Shown here one piece after another: positions 8,062 through 51,210 of a stretch of DNA of 62,091 nt (positions within the stretch are counted from its first letter, which is position 1; each line of letters opens with the position of its first letter). The notes beneath the pieces were generated by a model, which was given only the letters and a program-made list of their open reading frames with translations, was not told where the DNA came from and searched no databases. The stretch is taken from positions 1 through 62,091 of IMG/VR virus record IMGVR_UViG_3300009034_000037; one strand, written 5' to 3'. Position numbers and translations under genes: made by a program. This DNA comes from a virus.

Positions 8062-8082
8062 GGCAAAAGCTCCCTAAGAGTA

Positions 8083-29210: not shown

Positions 29211-29233
29211 CAGCAAACTCAAATCTCCAAAAC

Positions 29234-32500: not shown

Positions 32501-34779
32501 GGTAGCCAGATTTCGGCCCGCTCACGATACAACGACAAAAATCGCCTTAGCGTTTGTAGCTCATAAGGAAACGCAGGTCGGGTTGGCTTCGGCATGTAGA
32601 AAAATTCGCCAAGAGTAAGCTTGTCATGTTTTTCAGCACGTTCAGCTTGTTTTTCGAAATCTGAAGATACAACTCGAGTTTCATATTTTTCAACTAATTC
32701 CATACCCATCAATTTGATTTCGTTCTTGGGGTTGATACGCTCAAATGTTAAATCATAAAGCGGTACATTATTTGTCATAGGCCCATGGAAATTATCGTAG
32801 TGAATTTCAAGTCGCTCAGCCAAATCTGAGGGTAAAGCTCGACCGAGTCTGAAATGAATTACATGCTTAAAGCTCTCCGGTAGATCTTCAGTATCCTTAA
32901 CCAAGATATCAATATCACCCTTGGTCTTACCCCTATTGGCTAACCCACCAACGAGATAAACGTAAGGTTGTTTAGTTTTAAAAGTCTTGAAGTGCTTTAA
33001 AACATCCGTCAGCGAGATCTCCTCACCTCGCTCAACTCCCGAGGCGTTGATCCATGCGTACTCTCTTTTCTCTATTTTTTGCCACGGCGGCTTATCGTAA
33101 TCTGGTTGCTTTTCCGCATACCGCTCAAAGTCTCCCGATACATCGTCTAGCCCATCTCCTGGTGGAGATGGATGAACGATCTCTCGGTCGTATAGTTCAT
33201 CAACCACAAGAGCATGCAGGTTTACAATCTCTTCTTTAGTTATACCCTCCGGCCCTCGGGGACCGAGTTCGATCTTTGCTTCGAAAAGCTCATGTAGTCG
33301 CCAGTGCAACTCAATTAACTCAGTGTTAGTCTTGCCTATTACATCTATATCCGGAGCAACTATAACCCGCCTAATCATAACTTCAGGCAACTTTACCTCA
33401 CGCGCTACACGTTCCCAAAACTCACGGACAAATGGCTTCATGTCCTTTGGACTAAATCGCATAGTTTCAGGACCACGCCGAGCTGCCTCTTCTAGTATTT
33501 TACGTAACAGTAACTCAAGTGTCTCTAGATCGTATTTAAATCCCTCAGGGTTTTTCTTCCACGTAGTATACCACGCAAGAGTCAAACGATGGTCATCTCT
33601 AAGCACTTCATCACTTATTTTACTAGGATCATAGGTCTTAGGATCACGGATTTTCTCAACACCAAAATCCAACTCATGTATTTCAGAGTGTGCCAATTCC
33701 ACCTGGTCAATTACAAACTCTGAATTCAACTTGGGCAGATTTTCACATCTTCCTCCAAATGAAAGATATGCAATAGTAGCATGTGGTATGAACCCATGAC
33801 TTTGATCTTCTTCCTGAAGCCCTGCTTCGACTACTGCACCTTTTATCGCGGTGTATACATCAGATAAATCAGGAGCATCCAATAAAACAACAAGTGCTGT
33901 ACATGGTTTACCATCTTTACTAGCTCCGTCAAAATACCCCCAGCCCTGAATTTTTGCGCTGATAGGCAAGAATTTGGACAGTGTTTTTTGCGCTACAGCT
34001 TGCGCCTTCTTCGCGTCAGCTTCAGAAAAACCGTTATCTCCACCACGAAGATAAAGCAAAGTTACATGATCAACATCTTCAACTTTGGCACCTGTCTTAC
34101 TAGCATACTTCTGTGAGATTTCCGTTAGCGTATTACGTACTGACTCGGGTAACCGAATATAGAAAAATAAGTCTTTAGGATTTGTTTTGATTTGCTTTTT
34201 TATCTTCACATCGTGTACAACTACCTGCGGATCAGGCCCAACATTCGTTTCTTGTGGCTGATCGAATTTTTCTACAACTTTAACCGGCCATGCGTAAAAT
34301 GGTCCGTTTTCCCAGCGGGGTTGCTTACTCATCCATTTGGCACGAAGGTCCATATTAATCAGGTGTTCATCCTCAGTCTGTTGCAACTCAGCTAGACTCA
34401 TCTCGGTTAACTTGCCTAAAGCAACTATACCCAAGGCTTTTTGTTCATTAATCAACAGGTAGACTCTATCACTGATTTCAAACGGCCGCGTTTTTACAAT
34501 TATTGATTTTTTACCATCAATTACAGCCTCAGCCATACTAGTAGGGGTAATGATCAAACCATTAGGTGGCAAGTCTGACTCAGCTTGTTTGATATTACTA
34601 TTTACCCAAGTTAGTTCAATCGAACCCTTTTCTTCTTCTGGCAGTATGCCGCTCTCGCCAAACTGCTGTGATGGATACAGCTTACCACTTTCTTCCAGCT
34701 CGTTAATACCAATAGCTTTGGTAATAGGTACCGTTCGATTAAATGGATCCATAGCGCGTCTTGGCAGTCGCTTTCGCAT
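29524..34779 (-). CDS. Giant fusion: ASCH-like, 2H-PEase, NTase, DNA ligase, LigD-PE, prohead protease
   Basis: 1751 residues from ATG 34779 (TTG 34824 is in frame and overlaps the MuF gene; residue numbers here count from that TTG). Visible in order: ~88-190 ASCH/PUA-like; ~215-390 2H phosphoesterase with HVT (254) and HAT (348); ~618-700 nucleotidyltransferase with GG (626) and GDIDIL (636-641); ~770-1060 ATP-dependent DNA ligase with KYDGAR (lysine 781), FDCE (~827), FDVLYH, EGVVCK (~935) and WVKYH; ~1105-1290 LigD-type 3'-phosphoesterase with YAVQHH and LHSDLR; ~1310-1338 zinc site C-x4-C/C-x2-H; ~1494-1530 a second, weaker PE-like segment; ~1640-1766 XkdF/S78-type prohead protease with VLEPNVIDAQGDIIS, LLHE, VESW and ITGFSIGG. 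It occupies the protease slot between MuF and scaffold. The repair domains may be packaged and then cut free (inference). Confidence 0.85.
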   Translation of the reverse strand: MRKRLPRRAMDPFNRTVPITKAIGINELEESGKLYPSQQFGESGILPEEEKGSIELTWVNSNIKQAESDLPPNGLIITPTSMAEAVIDGKKSIIVKTRPFEISDRVYLLINEQKALGIVALGKLTEMSLAELQQTEDEHLINMDLRAKWMSKQPRWENGPFYAWPVKVVEKFDQPQETNVGPDPQVVVHDVKIKKQIKTNPKDLFFYIRLPESVRNTLTEISQKYASKTGAKVEDVDHVTLLYLRGGDNGFSEADAKKAQAVAQKTLSKFLPISAKIQGWGYFDGASKDGKPCTALVVLLDAPDLSDVYTAIKGAVVEAGLQEEDQSHGFIPHATIAYLSFGGRCENLPKLNSEFVIDQVELAHSEIHELDFGVEKIRDPKTYDPSKISDEVLRDDHRLTLAWYTTWKKNPEGFKYDLETLELLLRKILEEAARRGPETMRFSPKDMKPFVREFWERVAREVKLPEVMIRRVIVAPDIDVIGKTNTELIELHWRLHELFEAKIELGPRGPEGITKEEIVNLHALVVDELYDREIVHPSPPGDGLDDVSGDFERYAEKQPDYDKPPWQKIEKREYAWINASGVERGEEISLTDVLKHFKTFKTKQPYVYLVGGLANRGKTKGDIDILVKDTEDLPESFKHVIHFRLGRALPSDLAERLEIHYDNFHGPMTNNVPLYDLTFERINPKNEIKLMGMELVEKYETRVVSSDFEKQAERAEKHDKLTLGEFFYMPKPTRPAFPYELQTLRRFLSLYRERAEIWLPAFVQKKYDGARHQVHKDGNKIKIISENGEDNVARLPQTIEEISNLKVDKLVFDCEIELWQGRQHLPREAIAGYLHSKDEPNDTDIITNIFDVLYHDKDGDIHNWPVQQRLEVLEKLDIKQSTMGVPDLKHRLNVVPGAIAHDLEELEKIVRKIRELPGSEGVVCKQIDSPYPLKEVALDLWVKYHNSSTVRGIVIGREKTKGGIWVYQWGVLPSGKPVETVDIKDKTIVPVGDTFATKLDFDEGDSILIEGETINIEVTPKGERMSVWVPRVIGPWTDKADTIDSAATRAKRNLVLQVKKIDEEGNIEYLPTRTVEKQADPYMEIPPEEEGPYDYAVQHHIRGRGLHSDLRIVLRPKKLLIGWTLLTGIKDAIKEPIITLSEARQLSRTRMDKISKINWDTGEWAKRAKRGVEKPVRTSIQAIRKSPEPIAWKDVEGVTKKPELGKPPPIGGTRHFPGVFQIVDRGKTEYGSQKSWFHEYFFHGEALNYRVIFRQLRLKKDLEVLPDNLKNEIVDRVMQSWQLEVAKSKPSRKQCMYDGCKRAPEIDVLWADGRGRAWFCKEHFVKWKQDFKDRNKENWLEIVGEKGITIGEAPKKWADVHKKDCVPQISKAILPPSEESELPGPVWLCIRPDDQTPYVLDKDAVKKGWMPPVGVSALPKAVREQIPIEYHYWKKKTVATAKQVRDGLYWAVKTKNVEIDYTAPYKREVTKTSMLDAKFVLQEQTWRGPIQIRVGPSRTLWQLRLDVGRPDLIVLEMYLNPLDNKQLATRVTEDPHKESMNLAGPIKPSHYLNPTKTTPSNIEILDSGKASVFSYSNEFIKVQLKGEKLKGLYQAKRSNDDWLWSRSKSGPEVKKDFDKIVDEFQTEIAFHMPITKVNKEKQLVTGVVLEPNVIDAQGDIISAEAIERAAHTFLARYNRATQLGLLHEIFGENGIELVESWIAPVDLKLGSQRVKQGTWLMTNKIIDDALWKRVKSGDITGFSIGGTATVL

Positions 34780-34816
34780 AATCATTCCCCAATTTATAAT
34801 CTCTTGATTTTCATCC

Positions 34817-36796
34817 TTAAGCAAACTCTCTTAACTTCTTTTTAAGATCATCCTCAATCAACCACTGTACCTTTTTGGTCAATTTTTTGACATCTTCAAC
34901 CATCATACCAGCTGTCAGTTCCGAAGGCAAAGTTATACTTTCTACATAGCGCTCTAGATATTTGTCAGCTGATATCGCGCTATCAGCCCTACCTCGTAGC
35001 TTTATCGATGCTTCGGCCGCAACCTCACGCGCTCCGAGACCTCTAGTATGTTTAGACCATTTCTTGTAAGATTCAGATCCACGCAACACATTGTCCATTG
35101 CCTTTTGAACAGAGTTAACAATAGCAGCCGTAAACACCATATTAGATCGGTTCTTGACTTGATGCCACTGCAATCCAAAAGTGTCCTTTAGAATTTTCTC
35201 AGTGGCCAACTGCACCGTTCCTTCTTCTAACATCGACCCTATGCCCACTAACGCTTTATCGGTAGCAGGCGCGTGCGCACGCATCGTCTGACGAATAATG
35301 GTAGACATTCCGCTGATAGACTTAGTATCAATCTTGCCTTTTAAAAACCTAGCAGCGTCTTTCCTAGACTGATCTGATATGTCAATCCTTCCAGTAGACA
35401 TCACGTAAAAACCAGCGTCTTCTTCAAATTCTTTGGATACGACTATGTCAGCCGCTTCGTCTAAATTGTCAACGATTGGTCGGCTAATCATACCCCGCTC
35501 AGCCGCAATAGCGTTTAGCTCCCGACGTGCGCTTACTTGAGCACTAGGCCTAAGAGCAATTCCTTTCTGTGGCCCTTTTTTTGCTGTACTTAGCAGATAA
35601 GTTGCCAGCAAAGCAGCACCAAAATATTGATCTGGTCTCGTTTTATGTGAAGGCACTTTGGGAAACTCTCGTGGTCGTTGTCCTTTAGGTAATTTTGGTC
35701 GGGGAGGTATAGGTACACCGGGAGGTCTTGGCAAAGGTGCCGGCGCGTAAGTCTCAAAAGAGGCGGCTTCCGTAGAAACATCAACAGTACAACGACAACG
35801 GTAATGAAATGGTGGCAAAGAAAACCCAGCATCCGCAAGCTTTCCCGCGTCGTCCGGACCAACTGGACCAGCTTTTGGAGAAACTGCTTGCAATCTACTC
35901 AGGTTAGTCCACGGGTGCACACTTTTTATATCTTGCGGAGTCTTAGCACCAAGCTCCGCGTTAAGTTGACGCGAGCCGTGATCGATAGCAAAAACCTTGC
36001 CATCCATGTGTAGACAGACTTCGCACGTCCGACGATCAACCGTAGCGTTGATATAGTACTTGGTAACACCCAGGTCTATAAACGACCTCATCTGTCCATG
36101 AGTTCTTCCTACAGTAGCAGCGTTTGCGGCAAGTCCCTCAAAGTACTGTCGAGATGTCCCATGAAACCCTCCTGGAGTTCGAACATGGCTAAGCTCATCC
36201 TTAATGCGTTCGCTCATAAGCTTGCCGGCAGCTACCTGATCGGTACCAGCTTCAATCATGGTTTCCTTTGCCGTCTTAGCAATAGATTCAGAAAGGTTTT
36301 TCGAATAATGTTTGCCAACCCAAAAAATCTGCTGTTCTGCAATTGCCTTCACCGCAGATTCGTCCACCAAGTCAAAAGTCGGTAACAACTGTGCAAATCG
36401 CCGCTTGGCTTTTTTTAGCTCTGAAAAACTTGGTGCCGAGTAAGATAATAGCGCAGTGGTTTCCCTGTTCGCTTTTCGCCACCCAGCCTTACGAGCTAAT
36501 TGATAAATATGCTTGGTATCTTTTTCTACTCTTGGGACTACATCACGGGTCCACTTCAACATTTCTCTTTCGACAACTTTAGAAATATCCTTCGCAGGTT
36601 TGAGTCGTCGAGCTAAACTACTAGCCCTATCTACCGCGGTACGTACCCGCTTGTTCCATGTGGTATCAAGATACTGACGAAGTAGTAGCTCTATTCGAGC
36701 TATTTGAGCAACCTCAGAAATGCCTATCGTCTTAGCCACTAGTTCATCAACAGCAGTCAGCCCCTCTAGCCATATGTTAGCGACAGACTGACCCAC
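34817..36796 (-). CDS. MuF-type minor head protein with extra C-terminal domain
   Basis: About 659 residues from GTG 36796, which follows GAGGAATAACATA; the frame extends to a TTG at 36859 that overlaps the portal gene. The middle (residues ~200-360 of the long frame) is the phage Mu F/SPP1 gp7 head morphogenesis domain: RRTCEVCLHMDGKVF, later PPFHYRCRC. A Pro-rich linker follows (PAPLPRPPGVPIPPRPK), then ~270 residues with IIRQTMRAHAP and SMLEEGTVQLATEKI. This tail resembles a metallopeptidase-like domain (helix with H, then LEEG) in which the HExxH motif is lost. MuF proteins often carry C-terminal effector domains that are packaged in the head. Confidence 0.82.
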   Translation of the reverse strand: MGQSVANIWLEGLTAVDELVAKTIGISEVAQIARIELLLRQYLDTTWNKRVRTAVDRASSLARRLKPAKDISKVVEREMLKWTRDVVPRVEKDTKHIYQLARKAGWRKANRETTALLSYSAPSFSELKKAKRRFAQLLPTFDLVDESAVKAIAEQQIFWVGKHYSKNLSESIAKTAKETMIEAGTDQVAAGKLMSERIKDELSHVRTPGGFHGTSRQYFEGLAANAATVGRTHGQMRSFIDLGVTKYYINATVDRRTCEVCLHMDGKVFAIDHGSRQLNAELGAKTPQDIKSVHPWTNLSRLQAVSPKAGPVGPDDAGKLADAGFSLPPFHYRCRCTVDVSTEAASFETYAPAPLPRPPGVPIPPRPKLPKGQRPREFPKVPSHKTRPDQYFGAALLATYLLSTAKKGPQKGIALRPSAQVSARRELNAIAAERGMISRPIVDNLDEAADIVVSKEFEEDAGFYVMSTGRIDISDQSRKDAARFLKGKIDTKSISGMSTIIRQTMRAHAPATDKALVGIGSMLEEGTVQLATEKILKDTFGLQWHQVKNRSNMVFTAAIVNSVQKAMDNVLRGSESYKKWSKHTRGLGAREVAAEASIKLRGRADSAISADKYLERYVESITLPSELTAGMMVEDVKKLTKKVQWLIEDDLKKKLREFA

Positions 36797-38568: not shown

Positions 38569-40050
38569 CTATATCAATCCTGGCTCAGTTGCTCTAACCT
38601 GTCTACGTTTTCTTTTCTTTCGGCTTGCGCGTATTGCTAAATCAAAAGCGTCCAGCCCATCTCTATATCGGTATCCAGGAAAAAGTACAAACTGATCAAT
38701 CAGCGTTTCCATGTTTTTACGAAAAAATATTCGCTTATCCTCGAATCTCGGAGTTAGTTTTAATGCACGAGTCATTTTATCCTTGTCCGTATGAATTGGA
38801 ATAAACCGATAATTTTTGTCTCGATGTTTTATCTCTTGGTAGAAAGCCCGCTGATAAGCATTAGACTCTACCGCCGCGCGAATAGGATCATGACGTTCGT
38901 ACATCGACAATGCTTTGTCAATTTGCCTCGGAAACGTAATATGCCCAAGATAAAAATCCAAGACGTACACATTTTCTGATTTATCTATTCCGATTACAAC
39001 CGTTGCAAATTGAGCGCTATCACGGGTTTCCTTTTCGCTAACTGCCAGATCAGTACCCTGATAAACCCGCAAACCAGTAGGAAGCTTATTATCATCAATG
39101 ATTTGGCAATCGTCATATTGAAAAACTTCACCCTTCATCGCTTCGGTATCACAGAGAAACTGACAATTAAATATCACAACGCCCGACTTCCGCTTCTTTG
39201 CTTCAAACCATTTAGGCGGATGCCTCTCTGGCCAAGGACTTTTACCTGACCAGTCTAACGCGGGAAATATCTGATGACTTTTTGCTAACTCGTTTGCCAT
39301 CAAGCTACCATACAAATCGTCAAAATGATATCGAGTACCTACCATATGATGCTCACCGCGATGAGGTATATCTGGATCTGGAGCTTCCAAACATGGGTCA
39401 AGCGTCTGATAAAACCAAGATCGCATCTTGTCGCGCATGTACTTAGTTCGACTATTTTCCTCATCGACAAGATCATCACTTAGTATAATGTCTGCATGAT
39501 GAGATGCTAACGTGGCATCTATTGCACCACAACACATTACAGACGGTTGCTTATCTGTACTAGTACGTGGCACGATCTCGATTTCTATCTCGTCCCATTT
39601 GGCAACCTTGCGTGGATCATAAAACTCGCCAAAAATCTCAATCAACCGCTGATTGCTTTCGAAGTGCGCCTTGATTTCTCGTAGAAACCCCTTGGCGTTC
39701 CCGGTAGTCTTACTGGCTAATATAATTCTAAGATTCGGATCTTTTAATAAGTAATGAATAGTCTTTGCTATTGTCAACAATGTTGATTTCCCAGATCCCC
39801 TATATGCAAGTTGCAGCGTATGTGGTTCATAAAATTGAAATAACAGCATTGACATGTGAAACGGCTTAACTTCATAACCAAGTACTTGCGTTGCCAACAA
39901 GTCAATCCGATCATGTTCTAAGATCGCCCTGCGCAAAACTTCATTATAAATAGTTCGATAATGCTTGAATAAATTTAGTAGGTCGTCTCTACTTGCGGTA
40001 TCCAGGGCAGTAGGATCGCCCTCGAGCAGAGGTATTGCCAACTCTGGCAT
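38569..40050 (-). CDS. Large terminase subunit
   Basis: A 493-residue protein. The N-terminal ATPase has Walker A YRGSGKSTL, a LRIILASKTTGNAKGFLREI segment and Walker B ADIILSDDLVDEEN. The C-terminal nuclease has GTDLAVSEKETRDSAQFATV and ends in a basic tail (RASRKKRKRRQVRA) fitting DNA contact. It cuts and pumps DNA through the portal. The start ATG is six bases after the stop of the upstream gene. Confidence 0.93.
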   Translation of the reverse strand: MPELAIPLLEGDPTALDTASRDDLLNLFKHYRTIYNEVLRRAILEHDRIDLLATQVLGYEVKPFHMSMLLFQFYEPHTLQLAYRGSGKSTLLTIAKTIHYLLKDPNLRIILASKTTGNAKGFLREIKAHFESNQRLIEIFGEFYDPRKVAKWDEIEIEIVPRTSTDKQPSVMCCGAIDATLASHHADIILSDDLVDEENSRTKYMRDKMRSWFYQTLDPCLEAPDPDIPHRGEHHMVGTRYHFDDLYGSLMANELAKSHQIFPALDWSGKSPWPERHPPKWFEAKKRKSGVVIFNCQFLCDTEAMKGEVFQYDDCQIIDDNKLPTGLRVYQGTDLAVSEKETRDSAQFATVVIGIDKSENVYVLDFYLGHITFPRQIDKALSMYERHDPIRAAVESNAYQRAFYQEIKHRDKNYRFIPIHTDKDKMTRALKLTPRFEDKRIFFRKNMETLIDQFVLFPGYRYRDGLDAFDLAIRASRKKRKRRQVRATEPGLI

Positions 40051-40056
40051 ATCGAC

Positions 40057-40437
40057 CTACTTTCGCAGCTCTTCAAAACCGGAAACATAGACCCAACACT
40101 CTTGCCCCGTCGTAACGCCCGATGGCACCGCAACAAACATCTGCCGACCGTTACATTCGACAGTAACTTCATACGATTTTCCAACGCCTTTGCTTGCAAA
40201 GGATAACACCATATGAGAGTCAATAAACTCATTTTTTTTTGGTGACCAAAACTGAATCTTGATCGCGGGATCAGCAGCCGCGTCCGGTACTACCTGAATA
40301 TTAGCAAAGCGGTAACTTAACATATTAATCCCACTTTGTAACCGTGATTCTGGTAACGTATCACTTGCGCCAGTTAGATATCGATGCAATACGTAGTCTG
40401 GCGCATGACTCGGCGAGCGTTTGGTTTCCTCAGACAT
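40057..40437 (-). CDS. Hypothetical virion-associated protein
   Basis: 126 residues from ATG 40437, which has GGAGGG upstream; the frame is open to 40512 but that part lies in the large hairpin. N-terminal hydrophilic region (SEETKRSPSHAPDYVLHRYL) and a beta-rich C-terminal half (MVLSFASKGVGKSYEVTVEC, WVYVSGFEELRK). Function not recognised. Its place just upstream of large terminase and downstream of two decoration-like genes suggests a head-associated role. Confidence 0.55.
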   Translation of the reverse strand: MSEETKRSPSHAPDYVLHRYLTGASDTLPESRLQSGINMLSYRFANIQVVPDAAADPAIKIQFWSPKKNEFIDSHMVLSFASKGVGKSYEVTVECNGRQMFVAVPSGVTTGQECWVYVSGFEELRK

Positions 40438-40470
40438 TATTACAGCCCTCCACGGGAAATATATATAGAA

Positions 40471-40547
40471 AGATTGGTAGCTCTTGTTAGACAGGGGAAA
40501 AGATGGAAACAAACCTGTCTAAGACAAAAATCAAGAGCCACCAATCT
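40471..40547 (-). promoter_or_regulatory. Long near-perfect hairpin between genes
   Basis: The plus-strand arm AGATTGGTAGCTCTTG, continuing TTAGACAGG (40471-40495), pairs with 40514-40547 (CCTGTCTAA, an 8-9 base asymmetric bulge, then CAAGAGCCACCAATCT), with one mismatch in the outer 16 bp and a loop of ~18 bases. There is no T-run, so it is not a standard terminator. It could be an RNase III or mRNA-stability element controlling expression between the decoration-like genes and terminase, or an excision scar. Confidence 0.75.
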
Positions 40548-40552
40548 ACCAA

Positions 40553-40858
40553 CTATTCGTGAGCTTCGTAATAACAAAGCTCTCCACTAACGTTTACATC
40601 AGTATCTGCACCAATCGAAAACCCATTTGCCCGAGGTGTAATTCCAAGACTCGTAAGAACAGAAATCGTTCCGTCAATTGCGGTCTTAACTCCATGTGCG
40701 TCAGCCATTCCGCGAAACCACTCTAGACGCACTAACCCACTAGCATTTACGTTTGTTACTCGAACTAACTTCGGTCGAAAGCCAACTGTATCAACATTGA
40801 TCGTTGATCCAGTACCATAAACTCCCCCAACCATTGTTCTATTGACTCCGGAAGACAT
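40553..40858 (-). CDS. Decoration-like protein, paralogue 2
   Basis: A 101-residue protein starting MSSGVNR and ending GELCYYEAHE. It is about two-thirds identical to the next gene upstream (40887-41192); shared blocks include NVDTVGFRPKLVR or FKPKLVR, EWFRGMAD and ITPR-NGF. The beta-rich sequence and the phrase GADTDVNVSGE resemble short capsid or collar decoration domains. ATG follows AAGGAGGT. Two copies suggest two related surface proteins, perhaps under diversifying selection. Confidence 0.65.
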   Translation of the reverse strand: MSSGVNRTMVGGVYGTGSTINVDTVGFRPKLVRVTNVNASGLVRLEWFRGMADAHGVKTAIDGTISVLTSLGITPRANGFSIGADTDVNVSGELCYYEAHE

Positions 40859-40886
40859 GTGATACCTCCTTTTTTTTGTTTTTAAA

Positions 40887-41192
40887 CTATTCGTGAGCTT
40901 CGTAATAACAAAGCTCTCCAGTAACGTTCATGTCACTATCAGCACCAAATGCGAATCCATTTGTTCGTGGAGTAATTCCGTTGCTGGTAACCACCGAAAT
41001 CGTTCCGTTGGTTACAGTTTTGATCGCGGAATCGTCAGCCATTCCGCGAAACCACTCAAATCGGCACTTACCACCACTTGCCACATTTACTATACGAACC
41101 AGCTTTGGCTTAAAACCCACCGTATCAACGTTGAGATCTGCACTAGCTCCATAAAATCCCTTTACCGCAACTCTATTGACTCCTGAAGACAT
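40887..41192 (-). CDS. Decoration-like protein, paralogue 1
   Basis: A 101-residue protein, tandem paralogue of 40553-40858 with the same length, start and end. Shared core: DLNVDTVGFKPKLVRIVN and FEWFRGMADDSAIKTV. GGAGGTTGAA precedes the ATG. A promoter-like sequence lies upstream beyond a TnpB remnant (41467-41496), which could give these structural genes their own expression. Function inferred only from composition and position. Confidence 0.65.
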   Translation of the reverse strand: MSSGVNRVAVKGFYGASADLNVDTVGFKPKLVRIVNVASGGKCRFEWFRGMADDSAIKTVTNGTISVVTSNGITPRTNGFAFGADSDMNVTGELCYYEAHE

Positions 41193-41506: not shown

Positions 41507-41965
41507 TTATTCGTGTTTAATTTCCACTAGTTGACTAAGCAACCCCGACACACTTTTCAAACTTCCTTCTACTCGCGCACCCACACCTCGGATTTCGCTT
41601 ACCATCTCATATTGGGATTCCCTGATTAATTCCATCTGCTTTTTGATGTCATTATGTTCTGCCTCGTGACCACGACGGTACTCACTAAACTGGGGCACAC
41701 TAATAAACTGGGCCAATGCATCTAGGAATGTCTTGTGCAGTTGCTCAATTTCTAATTTTAGACGCTGCATGGTTTCTGCCCCATTGGCTAGTCGACGTTC
41801 TCTCGCCTCGTCTAGTCTATGACGCGCATGAATACGCTCCTTGGTAAACCACCACAACAAAGAAGCAAGTACGAAAATAATCACCCCAGAAATAATCAGC
41901 GAGAATATCAGTAAGGGCAATCCACCTTCAGCTGCGATATTAGCTGCGGAAGTAACCGGTCCCAT
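41507..41965 (-). CDS. Membrane-anchored coiled-coil protein
   Basis: A 152-residue protein with one membrane helix at residues ~16-40 (LPLLIFSLIISGVIIFVLAS), a basic stop (WWFTKERIHARHR) and a long amphipathic C-terminal domain (RRLANGAETMQRLKLEIEQL, then VEGSLKSVSGLLSQLVEI). Likely anchored in the inner membrane with a cytoplasmic coiled coil. It is the last gene of the exported-protein cluster and may tether or insert these proteins. It could also be a second holin/antiholin-type factor. Confidence 0.6.
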   Translation of the reverse strand: MGPVTSAANIAAEGGLPLLIFSLIISGVIIFVLASLLWWFTKERIHARHRLDEARERRLANGAETMQRLKLEIEQLHKTFLDALAQFISVPQFSEYRRGHEAEHNDIKKQMELIRESQYEMVSEIRGVGARVEGSLKSVSGLLSQLVEIKHE

Positions 41966-41977
41966 TAGAACCCCTTC

Positions 41978-44578
41978 TCAATAAGGTGATTGAGTAAAAT
42001 TTTTGCAAGCCTCGAACCCTTTTTGAGGCCAAGCAATCGAATAAGGCGAAATCGAGATCGCTTCACCAACAAAATACCCATCAAGAAAAACTGCTGCACT
42101 TTGGTGACCGACATGCAGTTCATCACTTTGTGTATTCATCTGGCCGGTACTACCCCCACCTGAACTCGGACTGGCAATACTATACCAAGTCGAGTTACTG
42201 GTTTCGTACCAACGCGCTTTGAGATTTGACGGACTAGCATTGTCCGTACAGGCTTCCAAGAACTTCCTTGTACCTGCCACCCACGTCGAGGGCGTAATGG
42301 CTTGATAAATAGACTTCCACGCTGCGGCACCTGTAGTAACAGCAAAGGAAATATTGTTCGATCCATCATTGGTTATAAAAGACCAATACTGATCGCTCAC
42401 CGTACCAGAGGTCAATGCACGATGTACCGTACCGTCAGTTGTATAATCAGTATAGACACAGGCTGACACACAGAACCCATCCTCATACCCGTATTTCTGT
42501 TCAGTCTCAATAAAATCGCTTAGTGGGTTGTGTATTATATAATTTCTGGCATTAAATATTGTCGTACCCGCCCCTGAATTATGTACCCACGGCTTACGAT
42601 ACGAACTCGCCTTGAGCGAAATAGCATCATAGATAGCAGAACCACCTGATGTCTGTCTAACTCTCAGTTTCAGACTGTTAATCCCGACCGCCGTTGTTTT
42701 AGTATCACCAGCCTCAGCCCATACAGAACTTGTACTTCCAGTAACTATCTCGACTGTAGACTGTTGGCCAGTAGTGCAATCAGCACTTGTATATGGATCA
42801 TACTCGATAATATACAATGGATCCCCTGTTATGCTCTTTGCGTCTACGAATACATAGTAGGCAGTAGATGCAGATACGCCAATGCAAGAAGAAGTCAACG
42901 AGACATCAGCCCCAGTTCTCTTCATGCGAGCAGATACGTTACCATGCTTTGTGGCTGCCCGATATGCAGTAACCGCACCGATTTTAGTCCAACCAGTAAA
43001 AGTTGGACTGGAATCGTCGCCAACAACAATTTCATAACTATTATACGGAATCAGCTCTTCACCTTGTGAAAATACCGCTATAACCCCTGTTCCCTCAGCC
43101 TGGCATGCATTCGGCGTCCCGTCTCGACATACCTGAGTACTGCACGTCGCGTGCGAAGCGGCCTGCGAACAGGTATCTACGTAGAAACCATCTCCGTGAC
43201 TATTATTTTGGAAATATGGAGAAATGAATTTATTTGCTTGTACAGAGGAAAGTACACCACACCAGAATGTACAAGAAGCAAATAGAGAAGAAAAATGTTG
43301 ACCCCCAACCCCCCCTCCACTTGCTCCTATATTTAGTTCTACCGGATCATTTTTTATCGGGCCTTCTCCTGTATTAGTTGATGCAGTAGCTTCGTAATTT
43401 GCGTATAAATAAACGTCAGATACAGCATCTCCCTTAAACTCATAAGTTCCAACAAAAGATGTTAGGGTATCATTAACTAAAAAATTAGCAATCGTAATAG
43501 AATCTGCTGCGCCAGTTGTATCCTGCCAATAAAAACGTACGCTATTGCCAGTAAGATTATATATTACCCAATCATTAGCAGTACTTGGGTCCAGTTTTGC
43601 AAATATATAACCGGGATCAGTATTATCCCTAGTTACAAATCTACAACCAACACTAAAACTTCCTCCCTGATCTGCACATCCAACAACTGGATCAAATGTA
43701 TCATCGTCTGCTCTAAATAAATAATCGTTAATTCCATCCAAACTAGTTCCCCAACTTCCTACAGGCCCTGTTCCAACCCTTGGCAAAAGCATTTCAGCTT
43801 GTCCCCATTGTGAATCAGAGTTTACCGGCACCGACAACATGTTTCCCATCGCGCCCGTGATACTACAAGAATTCAATTCGTGCAGACCAACATAATCAAC
43901 ATAGACAGCAGTTCCGTCTGCGCTCCTCGCCGCAAGTGCAAAAATGTAACTGCTTTTGGTTGTAACACCAGTTGCAATAAAAGCTTGACTACACATCCAC
44001 GAAGTTCCGATATTAGCAAAAGACATATCGGTAAGTGATCCGGTCCATGTATCAGTAGCGGGAGCATAAGACTCCGTAAATGTCGAGTTGCCCGCGTAAA
44101 ACAAAAGGTCTTCCGTGCCATCTTGACCCTTGTAACAAAACGTCGCTAGGTAACATTTGTTAGCCTCGTAAGTCGCGGCATGATAAATAAGCGAATGCAA
44201 AAATCCCGTAGCATCTAGTTCTGCCGACGAGCCAAGACTATAAAGATATGTGGTCTCTTGATCGATGTCGCCGCCGGCGTAAGTACAATTGCACGTCCAA
44301 TCGGTGGGACAGTCAGTACAACCACCCTCCGCACCGGACCAAATTTCAAAATCGTCATTTGCCAAGGACGAACCTTGGACACCAGGGTCAAGTCTCCACT
44401 CTTCCTTAATGTTCGAGCGGTCATAGTAGTCAGAGCGGCTGTAGTCGGCTGCCCCGTAGGAGTCTGCTTTGGATACTCGAGGTATTAAAAACAAACAAGC
44501 CCAAAGTACTATGACAACCAGAACATGCCAGTATCTTGCGAGCCACTTCATAGTCGACTCAATCATCGCTAGATTCAT
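41978..44578 (-). CDS. Exported Cys-containing lectin-like protein
   Basis: About 866 residues from ATG 44578 behind GAGG, overlapping the upstream stop as ATGA. An N-terminal membrane/signal segment (WHVLVVIVLWACLFLIP) precedes VSKADSY, a possible cleavage site. The mature part is Cys-rich near the start (GCTDCPTDWTCNC) and contains laminin-G/concanavalin-like repeats (SLDGINDYLFRADDD, VGCRFVTRDNTDPGYIF; and WVHNSGAGTTIFNARNYI, DELHVGHQSAAVFLDGYF). It is probably secreted through Sec, unlike ordinary fibres. Confidence 0.7.
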   Translation of the reverse strand: MNLAMIESTMKWLARYWHVLVVIVLWACLFLIPRVSKADSYGAADYSRSDYYDRSNIKEEWRLDPGVQGSSLANDDFEIWSGAEGGCTDCPTDWTCNCTYAGGDIDQETTYLYSLGSSAELDATGFLHSLIYHAATYEANKCYLATFCYKGQDGTEDLLFYAGNSTFTESYAPATDTWTGSLTDMSFANIGTSWMCSQAFIATGVTTKSSYIFALAARSADGTAVYVDYVGLHELNSCSITGAMGNMLSVPVNSDSQWGQAEMLLPRVGTGPVGSWGTSLDGINDYLFRADDDTFDPVVGCADQGGSFSVGCRFVTRDNTDPGYIFAKLDPSTANDWVIYNLTGNSVRFYWQDTTGAADSITIANFLVNDTLTSFVGTYEFKGDAVSDVYLYANYEATASTNTGEGPIKNDPVELNIGASGGGVGGQHFSSLFASCTFWCGVLSSVQANKFISPYFQNNSHGDGFYVDTCSQAASHATCSTQVCRDGTPNACQAEGTGVIAVFSQGEELIPYNSYEIVVGDDSSPTFTGWTKIGAVTAYRAATKHGNVSARMKRTGADVSLTSSCIGVSASTAYYVFVDAKSITGDPLYIIEYDPYTSADCTTGQQSTVEIVTGSTSSVWAEAGDTKTTAVGINSLKLRVRQTSGGSAIYDAISLKASSYRKPWVHNSGAGTTIFNARNYIIHNPLSDFIETEQKYGYEDGFCVSACVYTDYTTDGTVHRALTSGTVSDQYWSFITNDGSNNISFAVTTGAAAWKSIYQAITPSTWVAGTRKFLEACTDNASPSNLKARWYETSNSTWYSIASPSSGGGSTGQMNTQSDELHVGHQSAAVFLDGYFVGEAISISPYSIAWPQKGFEACKNFTQSPY

Positions 44579-47088
44579 GGCCAAACCTCTTTCCCAGACC
44601 AAACATGAGGATTGCGAATTTTACAGTTGCCATCTACTGTACCGGCATAATTTTGTCCGAGTCTTATGTGGGTTCCGGTAGTATCGAACGTACCTGACCC
44701 GGAGTTTTCGATATAGGTCATTCCGGAGTTGCTGCCATTCAACCACATATCAATTCTCGAAAGATCTGAAAAATCAACAAAGAATCTAACTGTAAACCAG
44801 TTAGAAAAATCAATCGGATCAATAGCAGTATATACAAGATGATCAACATCGGCGTCGTCTCTGATACTACCGAATAAGCGTCCGGCTGCGGCAACGTACA
44901 TATAAAATCTGTTTCTGGTTCCGGATGCGGTCCCAGAGTTGCCGCTAATTGATAATAGTATCCGTTCTTCACCTATATCTGCAGAACCTTCCCATAAACA
45001 TTTAGCATCCAGTCGGACTGTTAGCTTATCTCGGTTAGTATTTGGCTCAAACTTATCAGGCAATACTCGCTGACTGGCATCCCCACCTGGATGCGGATCG
45101 AGTGTTACTGAATCTGCATTGCGCGTGACTGACGCTGTCGTTGTAGGGACAATAGAGGTAGGAAATGCACCTTTTTCAACTTGTGCCTGCCAGACATACG
45201 TATTAATCGTCGAACCATCACCGAGAAATTGATTATCACCGTCAGCCTCAGCTGAATAAACTAAAACGGTATGTTGTGCCGCAGTTCCAGTAAACACTAT
45301 CCAACAGTGATAAAATCCATTCCACCCAGACTTCATTTTAGCTACTGCCCCTGCACCTACCGTTCCAACGAAACCATTTGCGATGTTAAAGTAAGCATAT
45401 GCATTAGCAACTGTTGTATCCTGTAAGTACAACCAGTCTTGGTTGCCTGGTTTAGCTCGAACATGAAAGACATAGCTATCAACAGTAAGATCAATTTCGT
45501 TTTGAGCAACACCGTGTATATTCTCAACTGCAGCTCCAACGATACCATCTACAGTAGTTTGCCCATCTGGGGCCACTATAACATTAGTACTTACCGTAGC
45601 AAACCCAGTCGTCCACGTAGTTGAAAAATCCTGCGATTGGAAAACCAAATTTTGACCCTGAGATTCAATTAACAACGCTCCCCCACCCCCACCAACACGA
45701 GGCATATGTGGCGCGACTTCAGCCATGGTTTCATCTGCAAAAGCCGTGTAGGCCGTGGTCGCACGCCCGACAGCAAAAGCATTCGTTTGCATATTCGATG
45801 CTATCGCTAGTAATACTTCTCGTTCGTAAGCTAGTCTTTTTGCTGATAAAGCTTTAGCCCTGAGATGTATATAAGAGATATCCCCTGGAAATGGATAGGT
45901 CCCCGTAGTCTCGTACTCCGCAATTCTTAAGTTTCGAGCACCATCTATTCCATAAGTCGAAACATTTACAGGTGTACCTGCAACATTATTAACGTAAACC
46001 GTAGCATTGTTCCCAGACCTAACAACATGAACAACATCGTAATAGTCATCATGTGTTATACCTGTCGCACAAAGCTGGGCTGTAGCCTTGTTGAAACAAG
46101 CAGAAATAGCATTAGTTCCATACTGAATTCCAAAACCATCAGTATTAATAAGTCCATGCGAAAACATATAAGGAGAGGCAGGCCCACCTGTTTTGCGCAT
46201 TGCAACAAGAGTGAGAGTAAAGTCACCATCAAAAACGTTCATGCTGTCGTGATGAGCTTTACTATCGTACTGGTCTATTCCGTTAAATTCTCTTGCCGCT
46301 ACTCGATTCCCATCTACTCTTTGTCGATCAGATTTTGCTAATGTTGGCGCGTTTGTGGGTGTAAGATCCAAACGAGGTTTCGTTGTCGTTGTTGTCGTAT
46401 GGTAGACACCAATCCCGCCATCTACGTCTTCGTCAACAAGCCAAGCACGGCCACCATACAGATCCTCCCCTGTACTCCAGGTCGAGTTTCCACCCAAAGT
46501 ACAACCCACATGGGTATCACCAGCAACCAGTACCCCTTCAACTCGAAAAAGTTGCCAAAACGGAGTCACGGTTATCGCTTGTGTTCCGAGTATCGTTCCG
46601 TGTGCTTGGTCATAGATGTGGATCGACAGAGATACATTCCCAGTCACTGACCGAAGATCAAACATGCAGTAAAACTTTTGGCCAACTGAACCAGCTACAT
46701 CCTGGTAAAGATACGAATCCGCCGCAGTCGGTGCTAATTTTTCGGCACCCAGTACACCATCTCGAAAACGCACTTGGTCTGTCGTCACCGTAACGGTTGC
46801 CTTCGTCCACGCTACATTATCTAAAGCTTCTGATTGTTGAATCAGATTGGGTCCGCTGGTGTCTTTCCAATTGTTACTAGCATCAATGTTATCAGCACAG
46901 AGCTCAATAACTGTAGTTTTATCTGTGAACATATTGCTTACGCAAACATCGGGCATACCTTCGAAACTTGCGTGAAGTCCACTGGCATACACCGTAGCAG
47001 ATATCAAAATCGTTAGGAGCCCAACCCAAAAACTCCGAATGATTATGAAGACCCCATACAATATGCTAGAATATAGTTTCCGTATCAC
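44575..47088 (-). CDS. Exported lectin-like protein
   Basis: An 837-residue protein. The N-terminal signal-type segment (GVFIIIRSFWVGLLTILISA, then TVYASG) is followed by a mature chain with repeated beta-sandwich texture: REFNGIDQYDSKAHHDSMNV, then the glycan-binding-like part FDGDFTLTLVAMRKTGGPAS and a third domain with SADIGEERILLSISG and IDMWLNGSNSG. These are laminin-G/concanavalin-like folds. Start and stop each overlap neighbours by four bases (ATGA), a tightly coupled operon. Confidence 0.7.
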   Translation of the reverse strand: MIRKLYSSILYGVFIIIRSFWVGLLTILISATVYASGLHASFEGMPDVCVSNMFTDKTTVIELCADNIDASNNWKDTSGPNLIQQSEALDNVAWTKATVTVTTDQVRFRDGVLGAEKLAPTAADSYLYQDVAGSVGQKFYCMFDLRSVTGNVSLSIHIYDQAHGTILGTQAITVTPFWQLFRVEGVLVAGDTHVGCTLGGNSTWSTGEDLYGGRAWLVDEDVDGGIGVYHTTTTTTKPRLDLTPTNAPTLAKSDRQRVDGNRVAAREFNGIDQYDSKAHHDSMNVFDGDFTLTLVAMRKTGGPASPYMFSHGLINTDGFGIQYGTNAISACFNKATAQLCATGITHDDYYDVVHVVRSGNNATVYVNNVAGTPVNVSTYGIDGARNLRIAEYETTGTYPFPGDISYIHLRAKALSAKRLAYEREVLLAIASNMQTNAFAVGRATTAYTAFADETMAEVAPHMPRVGGGGGALLIESQGQNLVFQSQDFSTTWTTGFATVSTNVIVAPDGQTTVDGIVGAAVENIHGVAQNEIDLTVDSYVFHVRAKPGNQDWLYLQDTTVANAYAYFNIANGFVGTVGAGAVAKMKSGWNGFYHCWIVFTGTAAQHTVLVYSAEADGDNQFLGDGSTINTYVWQAQVEKGAFPTSIVPTTTASVTRNADSVTLDPHPGGDASQRVLPDKFEPNTNRDKLTVRLDAKCLWEGSADIGEERILLSISGNSGTASGTRNRFYMYVAAAGRLFGSIRDDADVDHLVYTAIDPIDFSNWFTVRFFVDFSDLSRIDMWLNGSNSGMTYIENSGSGTFDTTGTHIRLGQNYAGTVDGNCKIRNPHVWSGKEVWP

Positions 47089-47795
47089 TGCGACCTCGGC
47101 AAAACCTTATCATTTTTATTTGCTCGGAAATCTAAGTCGAGATGCCGACCCGCCCAGCCAGAAGGTATCCGTACATCCCGCCCGAGTATTGCTTTAGGAT
47201 CACTAATCGGTACGGGGCACTCGTAATTCTTTAGCGTTTCTGGATCGGTACAGTTGCCAACCGTCCACAGAAAGCGCCCTCGCTCGGCTAAATCACCAGT
47301 ATGTAACGTCAACATCTCCTTCATGGTTGATGCTTGATAACCATCGCCATCCGCAGCTATCAAGCAATCTTCAGCTCGCAATAACACAATCCAGTAGCAA
47401 CCGTCCGCTCGACAAGACCGTGCCAGCTTCACTGGCCAGCTTGCAGGCGACTTTCCAAAAGCGCCAAACAACTCAGGAATATATGGTACGTGGTAGCCCG
47501 ATTCGTCGTCCAATATCGAAAGCCCCTTCAACAAAACATGACAAAGCGAATGTTTTGTAAAGTCAGGTTTGGTCACCTCGACAACACTACCCAGCAGACC
47601 AACTGACGGCAAAGCCTGCCGGTCATACTTCGTACCAATTATCCGAACCAGCTTACCTTTTGGGGAACGAGCAGCTTTGTCGGCAATGTCGGCATCAGTC
47701 TGTGTACCAACTGGTTGTGCCCATGCATCAAACCCCCAAGTGAAAATGACTATGGCTGAATAAGTAAAAGCGATTACAATCAAGAACCTCAGCAT
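47085..47795 (-). CDS. Exported protein with Cys pairs
   Basis: 236 residues from ATG 47795; seven further in-frame codons belong to the leader repeat. Signal peptide: MLRFLIVIAFTYSAIVIFTW followed by GFDAWAQP, cleavage likely after AWA. The mature part contains six Cys (SLCHVLL, RSCRADGC, RAEDC, GNC, YEC), suggesting disulfides in the periplasm. No known domain recognised. The 3' end overlaps the next gene by four bases. Confidence 0.65.
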   Translation of the reverse strand: MLRFLIVIAFTYSAIVIFTWGFDAWAQPVGTQTDADIADKAARSPKGKLVRIIGTKYDRQALPSVGLLGSVVEVTKPDFTKHSLCHVLLKGLSILDDESGYHVPYIPELFGAFGKSPASWPVKLARSCRADGCYWIVLLRAEDCLIAADGDGYQASTMKEMLTLHTGDLAERGRFLWTVGNCTDPETLKNYECPVPISDPKAILGRDVRIPSGWAGRHLDLDFRANKNDKVLPRSQ

Positions 47796-47820
47796 CCCAA
47801 AACCCCTTTCAGACAAATCC
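47793..47820 (-). repeat. Dispersed leader repeat, copy D
   Basis: GGATTTGTCTGAAAGG followed by GGTTTTGGGATG matches the ribosome-site end of copies A-C with a few changes. It supplies the translation start of the exported Cys-pair protein. Confidence 0.7.
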
Positions 47821-47859
47821 GCTACAGCTCAACATACGAAATCGTGAATGTCACAGAGT

Positions 47860-49110
47860 CTACACCGGTGGTAGATGTTCCACCTTGGCACCTATATAAG
47901 AAGTAGCAGGAATCGCGGTATTGATAGTATCCAAGTGCACTGGTATGAGCTGTGCCTGTACCGCGGCACCTACCACAAACTCATAAACACCCAAACTATT
48001 ATCCGCTGCGGCCTCGCCCCAAAACAGTTCAATTTTGAATACCTGTGAAGCATCATAGTCTTGCAGATTAATCTGGGTAATATAAAATGGATTATTGATA
48101 GTATCTGCTGGAACAACCTGCACAGCCGCCGCCGTCCACGTCCATGCACCGTCACCCGAGTCAACTGCTACTCCTGCATTTGCTGGATAAGTACTACTAT
48201 CCTGATGCCCTATTTTAATATTCTGCCAGTGGTTGTCGTCGTAGGCGGTCACATCCGCTATGTTAGTTGTATTATGAGTAAAATAGCCGTTTTTAAAAAT
48301 ATTATTCGTAACAGTAGCTCCCGTGATACTCACACCAGTTGTGGAATTCATGACAGTAAACTCATCAAAATCAATGTATGAGTCACTAGCTCCCTCAATA
48401 GATACTCCAACGCCACAATTATCAATTTGTATCTTTCTTGCTGTAACGTAATCATACCCATTGATTTGAATAGCCTTGTCGATGATGCCTTCGAATTGTA
48501 GACAGCGAAGCCTAGCATTGTCTTGGGCATTGTCCAAAAGAATTCCTGTTCCAGCTCCAGCCGTACCTCCTTGTCTAAATGTTAATTTCTCAACCAAGCT
48601 ATTACTACCACGTAGATTTAAAAAAACTACGTCTTCGTCCGTTTCTCCAGTATTATCAAAAAACACATTTTGAATTGTGAAACCATCTCCAGTAGATCTA
48701 AGCACGTAAACAGCAGCTGCATCACCGTTAACTAAATGAGGTCCACCGGAGCAAGAATCCGACATGCCTTGCACATGTACATAGTCGACAGAAATAGTCG
48801 TGCCATTGGCATCTGTTCCGTTATCCAGATCATGTGAACCTGCACCTACATAAATCACATCTTGTACGGTCGAAGTACATTTAGCTACTGCATCACGAAA
48901 CGTGCAAGCATGATTCCATGTGGAACAATCACCAGTTCCGGTAGGAGTGGCAAACCAGTGTTTCTCTCCTTCTGTCTCATACGGTAAAGCGATTATAAGT
49001 TTGTCACCATCGGTAGTACTCGCTGTAAGTAACCCAAGTATAAGTACAGAGAGAAGCAAACACACAAATAATTGTAAAAATGATTTCACCCAATATTTTT
49101 TGGCGCTCAT
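47860..49110 (-). CDS. Exported right-handed beta-helix protein
   Basis: 416 residues from ATG 49110 behind GGAGGTG. Signal segment SFLQLFVCLLLSVLILGLLT. The mature chain opens with WFATPTGTGDCSTWNHACTF, a motif of parallel beta-helix proteins (ordered Cys pair and FRDAV), and continues with helix-turn repeats (DFDEFTVMNSTTGVSITGAT). The last ~110 residues are a different beta domain (VFKIELFWGEAAADNSLG). A pectate-lyase-like fold suggests binding or cutting of polysaccharides outside the cell. Confidence 0.72.
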   Translation of the reverse strand: MSAKKYWVKSFLQLFVCLLLSVLILGLLTASTTDGDKLIIALPYETEGEKHWFATPTGTGDCSTWNHACTFRDAVAKCTSTVQDVIYVGAGSHDLDNGTDANGTTISVDYVHVQGMSDSCSGGPHLVNGDAAAVYVLRSTGDGFTIQNVFFDNTGETDEDVVFLNLRGSNSLVEKLTFRQGGTAGAGTGILLDNAQDNARLRCLQFEGIIDKAIQINGYDYVTARKIQIDNCGVGVSIEGASDSYIDFDEFTVMNSTTGVSITGATVTNNIFKNGYFTHNTTNIADVTAYDDNHWQNIKIGHQDSSTYPANAGVAVDSGDGAWTWTAAAVQVVPADTINNPFYITQINLQDYDASQVFKIELFWGEAAADNSLGVYEFVVGAAVQAQLIPVHLDTINTAIPATSYIGAKVEHLPPV

Positions 49111-49114
49111 CACA

Positions 49115-50422
49115 TCACCTCCTTACCTGTTTAAGCCAAGCATCGGCTGTAGTGTCCTCAGTAGCTAGACATCGAGCCTTTACCTGAATCCAAGGCATCG
49201 GGTCATCTGTACAGTATTTACAAAGAGCACTACCAGAAGCAAGCGTGTCACAAGATGTCCAAGTATTTGTAATTACCCAACCAGAAGATCCATCTGGACT
49301 GTCTTGTATTTCGACATCAGAAAAATCGTCACCAGATCCACCACCTACATTTTTAACATAAACACAAAACCGACCATTAGCTAACGTCTTTGTCGGCCCC
49401 AAAATTATAATCCCAGTTGTAGCCGAAATCGCTGTATCGTCAACAGCAGTAGGCCCTACTTTTGCCGGTTCGCTAACTCCCAAATAAGCGATTTTTACCT
49501 CTCGAGCGTTGATACCTGAATTCTCACCTGGTCTCGTCGCTACATCAGTCATCTGTACTTCGCCAGTAGCACCAAGTTTTACGATATCTAAGGCAGTACC
49601 ATCGTCTCCGTAATTAACGGCCTCAACTTTCAAACCGCCTTCAGACTTTGACAGATTGTCACCCGAAACAAGAAGTTTCGCATCTTGGCTCCCGATTTTA
49701 ACCACATTGACATTAGGTGTGGCAATAGCAGCTGATACTTGAGAAGACAGATCCGCTGAGGTTTGAAAATTGGTATTTACCGCAATATTATCTACTCTGA
49801 TATCTGCTAGTGTATCTGTCTCAGCATCAAAAGCACAGCCAAGAGCCAAATAGGTTATGACCGCCGCATCCATCCCGTTACCCAGGTTACCCGCAGAACT
49901 CGGCGCATAAAATGCATAACGGATTTGCTGCCAGCCTGTACTCAAAGCATCATCATCAACACGCCACTCATTATAATTCGAGGCATCTGTACCTAATCTA
50001 ATAAAGCAGTAGCTGATATCCGTTGTGGCACTCACATTTAAGGAGACCATAATAAAACCATTGTTCTCCATAAACTGCTCAATATTCACAGCTGTAAGTG
50101 TTTTCTGAATGCCACCAAAAACTGTATTGTCAGTACCGTCTACTTTATCAAACTCCAGAGATTTGGATCCTTCAGTATGATCAAGATCAACGTCAATGCC
50201 TGTAGTATCATTACTAAGCGCAGTCCAATCGGTTTTGTCATCACAATTATGTAGAGATAATTGTGCTTGCACTGCTTGCGCTCGACCTTCTGTATCAGTC
50301 TGAATCACCCGTTTGATCTCGTCTACATCCTCTCCCTTTATAACAGTCCAATTTTGCGCAAAGACATTCGCGGCAAACAATCCTACAGCAAACAACACTG
50401 TCATTCTAAATATTGCCATCAT
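49115..50422 (-). CDS. Exported beta-sandwich protein
   Basis: 435 residues from ATG 50422 behind GGGAGG. Signal peptide MMAIFRMTVLFAVGLFAANV with cleavage after FAQ-type site (VFAQNW). A carbohydrate-binding-like middle (SISYCFIRLG-like pattern: SATTDISYCFIRLGTDASNY, then WQQIRYAFYAPSSAGNLG) and a C-terminal domain with ordered Cys (CDTLASGSALCKYC). It is the first gene of the exported operon after small terminase. Substrate unknown. Confidence 0.68.
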   Translation of the reverse strand: MMAIFRMTVLFAVGLFAANVFAQNWTVIKGEDVDEIKRVIQTDTEGRAQAVQAQLSLHNCDDKTDWTALSNDTTGIDVDLDHTEGSKSLEFDKVDGTDNTVFGGIQKTLTAVNIEQFMENNGFIMVSLNVSATTDISYCFIRLGTDASNYNEWRVDDDALSTGWQQIRYAFYAPSSAGNLGNGMDAAVITYLALGCAFDAETDTLADIRVDNIAVNTNFQTSADLSSQVSAAIATPNVNVVKIGSQDAKLLVSGDNLSKSEGGLKVEAVNYGDDGTALDIVKLGATGEVQMTDVATRPGENSGINAREVKIAYLGVSEPAKVGPTAVDDTAISATTGIIILGPTKTLANGRFCVYVKNVGGGSGDDFSDVEIQDSPDGSSGWVITNTWTSCDTLASGSALCKYCTDDPMPWIQVKARCLATEDTTADAWLKQVRR

Positions 50423-50538
50423 TCGCAACCTCCCTACTGTGAGAAAATAAAATATTTTTCTTTTTTTTTCACGCTTAGCTTAAACACTACTGACTTACAA
50501 ACTTTACTACAAAGAATAAAAGGAACAGAGAGATTTTG

Positions 50539-51210
50539 TCAACTGCCTAATCGATTTTTCACCACCCTTCTTCCTTTATGTACTCTATTTGCTCGTGCAC
50601 GGTTAGTTTTACTTTTGACCTTTTTCTTCTGAGTTCCTGGTAATAACCGCCGATGAATCCGCCCGGGCTTAACGTCTAGAATATTCTTATCTCCAAACTT
50701 CTCCATTAGCCCACGAAGACTACCTAATTCACTAGCAACCCTCTTTTTTAAATCTTCATCTGTGAGATCTGCAACTACAACGCCCAGCATGGATTCTGTC
50801 CGTACCGGTTTTTTATCAATAATTCCGAAATCTTGACCCATCTTAATGATTTTGTCGTAAATTTCGCTACGGCCCTTGACCGCGCTAACTTGTGCTTGCA
50901 AATGCTGCTTTTTGTATGCTTCGTTAGCCAAATCCGTCAAGTCACGTATGCAAGCTGACTGCTGAAACAAGTACTCTACAAAAACTTCTTCTGTGGTTTT
51001 TTTCTGTATGGCTTCGACTTGTACTTGTAATGCTTTACTTTTTAACTCATGGTAGTCATCTGCCGTAAGTTTAAGCTCTATCATTATCCAGGCATCGGTT
51101 CGACCTTCGCCCAAATAAGCGATAATTTTTTCTTTATTTCTTACCTCTAAAATTTGGTCTACTAGATTGGAATCTGGGGGCGGACCTCTTGCTGGAAAGT
51201 ATGCTTCCAT
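50539..51210 (-). CDS. Small terminase subunit candidate
   Basis: A 223-residue protein. The N-terminal region could hold an HTH (VRNKEKIIAYLGEGRTDAWI), the middle is helical (AYKKQHLQAQVSAVKGRSEI, then YDKIIKMGQDFGIID), and the tail is extremely basic (KKKVKSKTNRARANRVHKGR), fitting DNA binding. The pattern of a helical core with KIIKxGQDFG is one I associate with small terminases. The atypical feature is the 9-kb gap to the large subunit, filled by exported-protein genes. Confidence 0.6.
   Translation of the reverse strand: MEAYFPARGPPPDSNLVDQILEVRNKEKIIAYLGEGRTDAWIMIELKLTADDYHELKSKALQVQVEAIQKKTTEEVFVEYLFQQSACIRDLTDLANEAYKKQHLQAQVSAVKGRSEIYDKIIKMGQDFGIIDKKPVRTESMLGVVVADLTDEDLKKRVASELGSLRGLMEKFGDKNILDVKPGRIHRRLLPGTQKKKVKSKTNRARANRVHKGRRVVKNRLGS

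Follow-up and report, generated by a model that had tools for sequence, protein, structure and literature searches.

Five adjacent genes in the window, as we call the whole stretch of 62,091 nucleotides analysed here, constitute with scarcely any doubt an autonomous and transferable module that is horizontally mobile between phages, and the sequences of their five products are almost certainly those of exported proteins. Because the five-gene block recurs in an unrelated phage, what has to be explained is an autonomous module that moves, and no longer an insertion at one site. The literature searched, which lay largely outside the subscription journals, yielded no account of a cassette of this kind.

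The 62-kb virus record that makes up the window encodes a contractile-tail phage of bacteria, whose large terminase, portal, head, sheath, tape measure, and baseplate genes are located on the minus strand. All phage records compared are uncultivated and may be fragments. No tRNA or Rfam family was found in the window, and a scan for terminators and promoters gave no excess of sites over shuffled sequence. Dense short tandem repeats with units of 6–30 nt (GTCTAG/TAGGTCTTGGTC) and a 132-nt duplication lie near its start, at 85–632. Elsewhere, a 1766-aa ORF (29524–34824, minus strand) joins a 2′-5′ RNA ligase-like region, an ATP-dependent DNA ligase, and a C-terminal XkdF-type phage protease, and resembles a polyvalent head protein that may have undergone rearrangement; the next ORF (28041–29222, minus strand) begins with the segment that precedes the XkdF-type protease in PHROG 3017. 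The five consecutive genes of the cassette occupy 41978–50428 on the minus strand and are numbered from 50428 downward. Together with their surroundings, they are:

50539–51210, minus strand: upstream border, a TerS-like protein of 223 aa, kept in relatives; the label is positional
49115–50428, minus strand: gene 1, 437 aa, predicted signal peptide MRMMAIFRMTVLFAVGLFAANVFA^Q
47860–49113, minus strand: gene 2, 417 aa, predicted signal peptide ending LTA^S, right-handed beta-helix-type sequence
47085–47816, minus strand: gene 3, 243 aa, predicted signal peptide ending DAWA^Q, small domain
44575–47088, minus strand: gene 4, 837 aa, predicted signal peptide ending TVYA^S, conserved C-terminal region
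41978–44602, minus strand: gene 5, 874 aa from TTG, predicted signal peptide
41507–41965, minus strand: adjacent protein of 152 aa, one N-terminal transmembrane segment followed by a coiled coil; optional neighbour
40057–41192, minus strand: downstream border, two 101-aa paralogues and a protein of 127–151 aa, kept in relatives, between the slot and the large terminase
38569–40050, minus strand: large terminase (TerL), assigned with certainty from its sequence (PHROG match, 1.5e-74); anchor for comparing relatives

Genes 3 and 4 overlap in CAGTGA at 47088, which holds the stop of the 243-aa frame and the GTG of the 837-aa frame, and genes 4 and 5 overlap in CCATGA at 44578, which holds the stop of the 837-aa frame and an ATG of the 874-aa frame. 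Because of this ATGA overlap, gene 5 probably starts at ATG 44578 and not at TTG 44602. Through such ATGA and GTGA junctions the cassette genes appear to be translationally coupled. The original prediction of an operon of five exported-type genes with overlaps was thus borne out, and all five lie at the coordinates given, on the minus strand. No domain was common to all five proteins, which are mutually dissimilar.

A profile search with gene 5 led to two further loci, L046 and L043, the first of which belongs to G008, a 55.8-kb phage record with recognisable genes for portal, head protease, major capsid, and tape measure. The window terminase family had no match in G008. All five cassette genes occur in G008 in unchanged order, with identities of 33, 33, 42, 42, and 39% for genes 1 to 5 (genes 4 and 5 over their full length), and every one of them encodes its own predicted signal peptide. 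When all ORFs of the window and G008 were compared with each other, the five cassette proteins were the only ones in common at E ≤ 1e-5. A third record, G009, shares the backbone of G008 and has genes 1, 3, 4, and 5, with gene 2 swapped for an unrelated protein of 216 aa. The possibility that the cassette is a recent insertion was considered and rejected: its GC content follows that of each genome (cassette/record in four records, 0.445/0.431, 0.434/0.452, 0.560/0.598, and 0.549/0.561), which makes it an old resident.

It had also been proposed that the membrane-anchored coiled-coil protein at 41507–41965 ends the set. This did not hold, as the transferred cassettes of G008 and G009 lack a homologue of the 152-aa protein, whose coil, by the positive-inside rule, would probably stay in the cytoplasm. 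We therefore treat it as an adjacent ORF that probably lies outside the transferred unit. Other single-transmembrane, coiled-coil-like proteins adjoin exported genes at L043:4007–4519, L005:1363–1839, and L019:8662–8928; the first of these showed no blastp similarity to the 152-aa ORF.

Against cultured phages, the window TerL found distant relatives only, with 31% identity for the best among the matches listed. A closer terminase (53–77%) is present in 16 viral contigs, so that the slot beside TerL, taken to run from the TerS-like gene to the 101-aa gene, can be compared between phages. G002 (L004) has genes 1, 2, 3, and 5 in this slot. In L019, it holds gene 1, two exported beta-helix proteins, and one fibre-like exported protein, whilst in L002 it holds three other exported proteins. 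The slots of L006, L007, and L008 contain a membrane protein with HExxH, and no exported set was seen there; those of L015 and L016 contain a membrane-anchored matrixin-type protease (PF00413, 8.5e-7). Since the contents differ in this way among relatives, the slot appears to be a hot spot for membrane and exported functions. Placement of the set between the small and large terminase genes, as originally predicted, therefore stands as far as an accessory slot adjoining TerL is concerned, but the TerS part of the claim is positional only, and small-terminase models gave no match to the TerS-like protein in eight family members.

Some further observations concern this region. The matrixin-type metalloprotease genes (L015:8525–9172 and L016:8492–9133; HELLHILGLGHD and HEMLHVLGLAHD) follow directly after the TerS-like gene. 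Two more kinds of zincin-like-motif membrane protein occur in the slot region, one with HEFVHLWD or a similar motif and one with HEERH; for the two of these proteins tested, Pfam gave no match. Zincin-like-motif membrane proteins are located at:

L002:3179–3910
L006:7682–8416
L008:1221–2048
L011:1–576
L004:1986–2468
L012:2042–2602
L019:1659–2111

The two 101-aa paralogues of the window (40553–40858 and 40887–41192) are 79% identical over 137 nt and share an exact 25-nt repeat; among relatives, the 101-aa gene between cassette and TerL is present in single or double copy.

Export was assessed with a rule-based Sec/SPase I scan, rather than SignalP, that called for a positive n-region, an uncharged h-region with a mean KD of at least 2, and agreement with the −3/−1 rule. 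A leader score of at least 4 was reached by six of the 57 window ORFs of at least 100 aa, namely the five cassette genes and the ORF at 4123–4533. Of 780 segments taken from the interior of window proteins, no more than 18 passed the rule even without the threshold, and given this low pass rate the pattern in the cassette is not due to chance. The product of the ORF at 4123–4533 (minus strand), 136 aa long, combines a leader with a hydrophobic segment at the C-terminus; its gene is close to that of an M15 endolysin (5415–6116), and it is a candidate lysis protein. Among 27 exported-slot proteins, either homologues or slot-mates from several phage loci, 26 pass the leader rule; the 216-aa slot-2 protein of G009 has a hydrophobic N-terminus and fails it. 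The leader sequences are unrelated to each other, and many are short with a textbook n/h/c structure (for example, MKKIITILFAIFLATTATA^Q). They are evidently maintained by selection.

If these N-termini were uncleaved membrane anchors, or if the ORFs were mis-started, one might expect the long h-regions seen in window genes 2, 4, and 5 and the TTG or GTG start codons of several cassette genes. However, the n/h/c leader is kept in all but one of the 27 proteins, and the cysteine pattern described below also speaks against this explanation, which we consider extremely unlikely. Internal membrane anchors had been raised in the original prediction as an objection to its own Sec-type signals; in each cassette protein, the N-terminal hydrophobic segment of 19 aa is the only one, and the signals themselves were upheld by the scan. 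No lipobox or Tat motif is present in the five window proteins. Nor does a lipobox cysteine follow the leader in any member from the window, G002, or G008; a lipobox-like tetrapeptide occurs, far downstream of the leader, in the gene-4 protein of G009 only.

The mature cassette proteins contain 1.97% cysteine, compared with 0.55% in the structural proteins of this phage (p = 2e-10). In all three exported gene-1 proteins with the central domain, Cys62, Cys141, and Cys198 are present, whereas seven leaderless relatives from other phages have F/L, A/V, and V/I at the respective positions. Cysteines confined to the exported forms are what one would expect after a move to an oxidising compartment, and this contrast is probably the best single clue that export is real.

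Gene 1 has a central beta-sandwich-type domain (about 68–223) and a C-terminal domain (about 252–432) that is kept in G008 and G009. The central domain is also found, leaderless, in several other phages, where it adjoins portal and head-protease genes. At L020:3057–4846, three leaderless copies in tandem separate a portal-like gene from the head-protease region. Gene 3 has six cysteines that are invariant across four phages; it belongs to no known family, a single-sequence viral scan with it was empty, its profiles matched cassette phages only, and its AlphaFold model was poor (pLDDT 47). Gene 4 has a LamG-like region at 286–418, for which PF13385 scored 19.4 bits in the window (below the cut-off) and 29.6 bits in G009 (above it). 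Its residues 434–664 correspond to the head-spike-fibre domain of the gene transfer agent RcGTA (E = 1.4e-22 alone and 3e-30 using a profile with a homologue), and a 230-aa domain of gene 4 is common to tail proteins of several cultured phages. Gene 5 has a LamG domain at 313–453 (PF13385, 28.6 bits vs. a cut-off of 27.6 bits), a cysteine-rich segment at 478–500, and 23 cysteines in total. Its AlphaFold model is of low confidence (pLDDT 49) with Foldseek matches to laminin LG, TSPN, CBM40, and CBM4, and is taken here only as indicating a lectin-type beta-sandwich. Cultured phages gave no match for genes 1, 2, 3, and 5, the slot-2 protein of G009, or gene 5 of G008, and no full-length match to the cassette proteins.

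With the LamG, RcGTA spike-fibre, and beta-helix-type matches, the lectin, beta-helix, and beta-sandwich content suggested originally was recovered, and the cassette proteins very probably bind glycans. The idea that they are copies of the phage's own tail-fibre tip was rejected, as they have no similarity to its tail-fibre genes. With this dissimilarity, a ligand common to the lectins and the tail-fibre proteins would be conjectural, which weighs against the masking proposed below.

Gene 2 raises the possibility that the set is released and modifies matrix or capsule, with beta-helix proteins depolymerising the extracellular polysaccharide of the host and lectins targeting it, so that progeny could diffuse out at lysis. 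The sequence of gene 2 is beta-helix-like, although it scored below the cut-off for family PF13229, and its exported beta-helix slot-mate in L019 matches that family (E = 2.8e-12). For one GTA, a tailspike has been described that comes loose and degrades biofilm (PMC13420450). Yet gene 2 reached no enzyme family, no catalytic residues could be assigned, and the slot-2 protein is replaceable by the unrelated one of G009. We think it improbable that depolymerisation is what the set is for.

The cassette is situated in the head module of both backbones, shortly after the major capsid gene in G008 and G009. This location, the domains shared with virion families (RcGTA head spike fibre, baseplate/triplex protein, and tail proteins), the occurrence, in other phages, of gene-1-domain relatives flanked by portal and head protease/capsid genes, and the high cysteine content would all suit head or tail spikes that form their disulfides in the periplasm and join the virions once lysis has breached the inner membrane. 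However, the window and G008 have no capsid, portal, neck, or tail protein in common (E ≤ 1e-5), and as only the cassette is shared, a common docking site would have to have been invented twice. In all three gene-4 homologues, the N-terminus is a predicted signal peptide and not an RcGTA-type capsid-docking peptide; the RcGTA fibre docks by its N-terminal residues 2–10, which a cleaved leader replaces (PMC10218006). Three cultured-phage fibres with the gene-4 domain have no leader, and the usual distal-type tail genes are already present in the window at 6589–9267. Virion appendages are thus an unlikely explanation. Two phages that have no capsid or tail protein in common but carry the same five exported proteins most likely own a set that works alone.

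Exported proteins are typical of lysogenic conversion generally, and the cassette might accordingly bring about a long-term change in the surface of a lysogen or carrier-state host. Against this, Phage_integrase (tyrosine integrase) had no match in six records, while a control search matched 14 of 14 control genomes; the genes lie inside a late structural operon; and neither TerL nor gene 1 had relatives in genome_contigs. Lysogenic use is therefore very unlikely and use in the lytic cycle the likelier one. Without a tyrosine integrase in the six records, and with the genes sitting among head genes, late lytic expression of the cassette would be expected.

By sequence, the functions suggested originally (surface modification, exclusion of other phages, and matrix degradation) are indistinguishable. 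We infer the localisation, complex formation, ligand, and benefit of the cassette proteins as follows. The cassette would be a late module of Sec-exported, disulfide-stabilised, glycan-binding proteins made along with the head genes. Its products would fold in the periplasm, possibly as a single complex, and would reach the envelope and then, at lysis, the medium. There they would bind glycans of the host envelope or capsule and remain on the debris. With glycan receptors blocked on the dying cell and its debris, progeny would not be lost by adsorption and later phages would be excluded. We regard such receptor masking as the best explanation and hold it to be quite possible, if somewhat short of probable, that it is the main benefit. 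Five different proteins exceed what simple masking needs, and related domains elsewhere are parts of virion proteins, both of which count against it. It is also conceivable, if rather doubtful, that the five exported proteins, which are inherited together, form a single multi-lectin complex outside the cytoplasm, mobile as a unit between unrelated phages, which would serve as a secreted adhesive or shield, or as spikes that virions acquire only after lysis.

The late genes of tailed phages are usually taken to serve the virion or lysis. A mobile five-gene block of exported proteins of glycan-binding type would imply that lytic phages also use multi-protein tools outside the cytoplasm. The cassette offers a test case for masking or remodelling of the host's glycans during lysis, and new glycan-binding proteins could be obtained from it; constructs can draw on the window, G008, and the near-complete or substituted sets of G002 and G009, and thus on several variants.

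Phage proteins that take the host Sec route late in infection include the signal-peptide antiholin RI and SAR endolysins (PMC8385771). The cassette has the use of Sec in common with them but, unlike them, contains no lysis domains and has no linkage to lysis genes. The 230-aa domain of gene 4 is shared with PHROG 5939 and with tail proteins of RcapMu, Rhizobium, and Nonlabens phages; gene 4 has a leader, unlike all three of the cultured-phage fibres examined. For residues 434–664 of gene 4, the parallel is the homologous receptor-binding part of Rcc01080 (PDB 6tb9), the head spike fibre of RcGTA. When tagged, the RcGTA fibre attaches to capsulated cells, and gene transfer is blocked if RcGTA tail fibre is added, an effect thought to arise from receptor blocking (PMC10218006). 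Rcc01080 is a 325-aa capsid fibre that docks by its N-terminus, whereas gene 4, in addition to a predicted signal peptide, encodes other lectin-type regions and moves together with four more genes for exported proteins. In its mode of action, the cassette may be likened to Llp of T5 and BF23, which is likewise phage-encoded and exported, and whose late action is to block the receptors of infected cells and presumably those on debris as well (PMC4728585). Llp is one small lipoprotein encoded next to the receptor-binding gene; the cassette, in contrast, encodes five soluble, lipobox-free proteins about 33 kb from the tail-fibre genes, so that any Llp-like action would involve several soluble lectins in place of a single lipoprotein.
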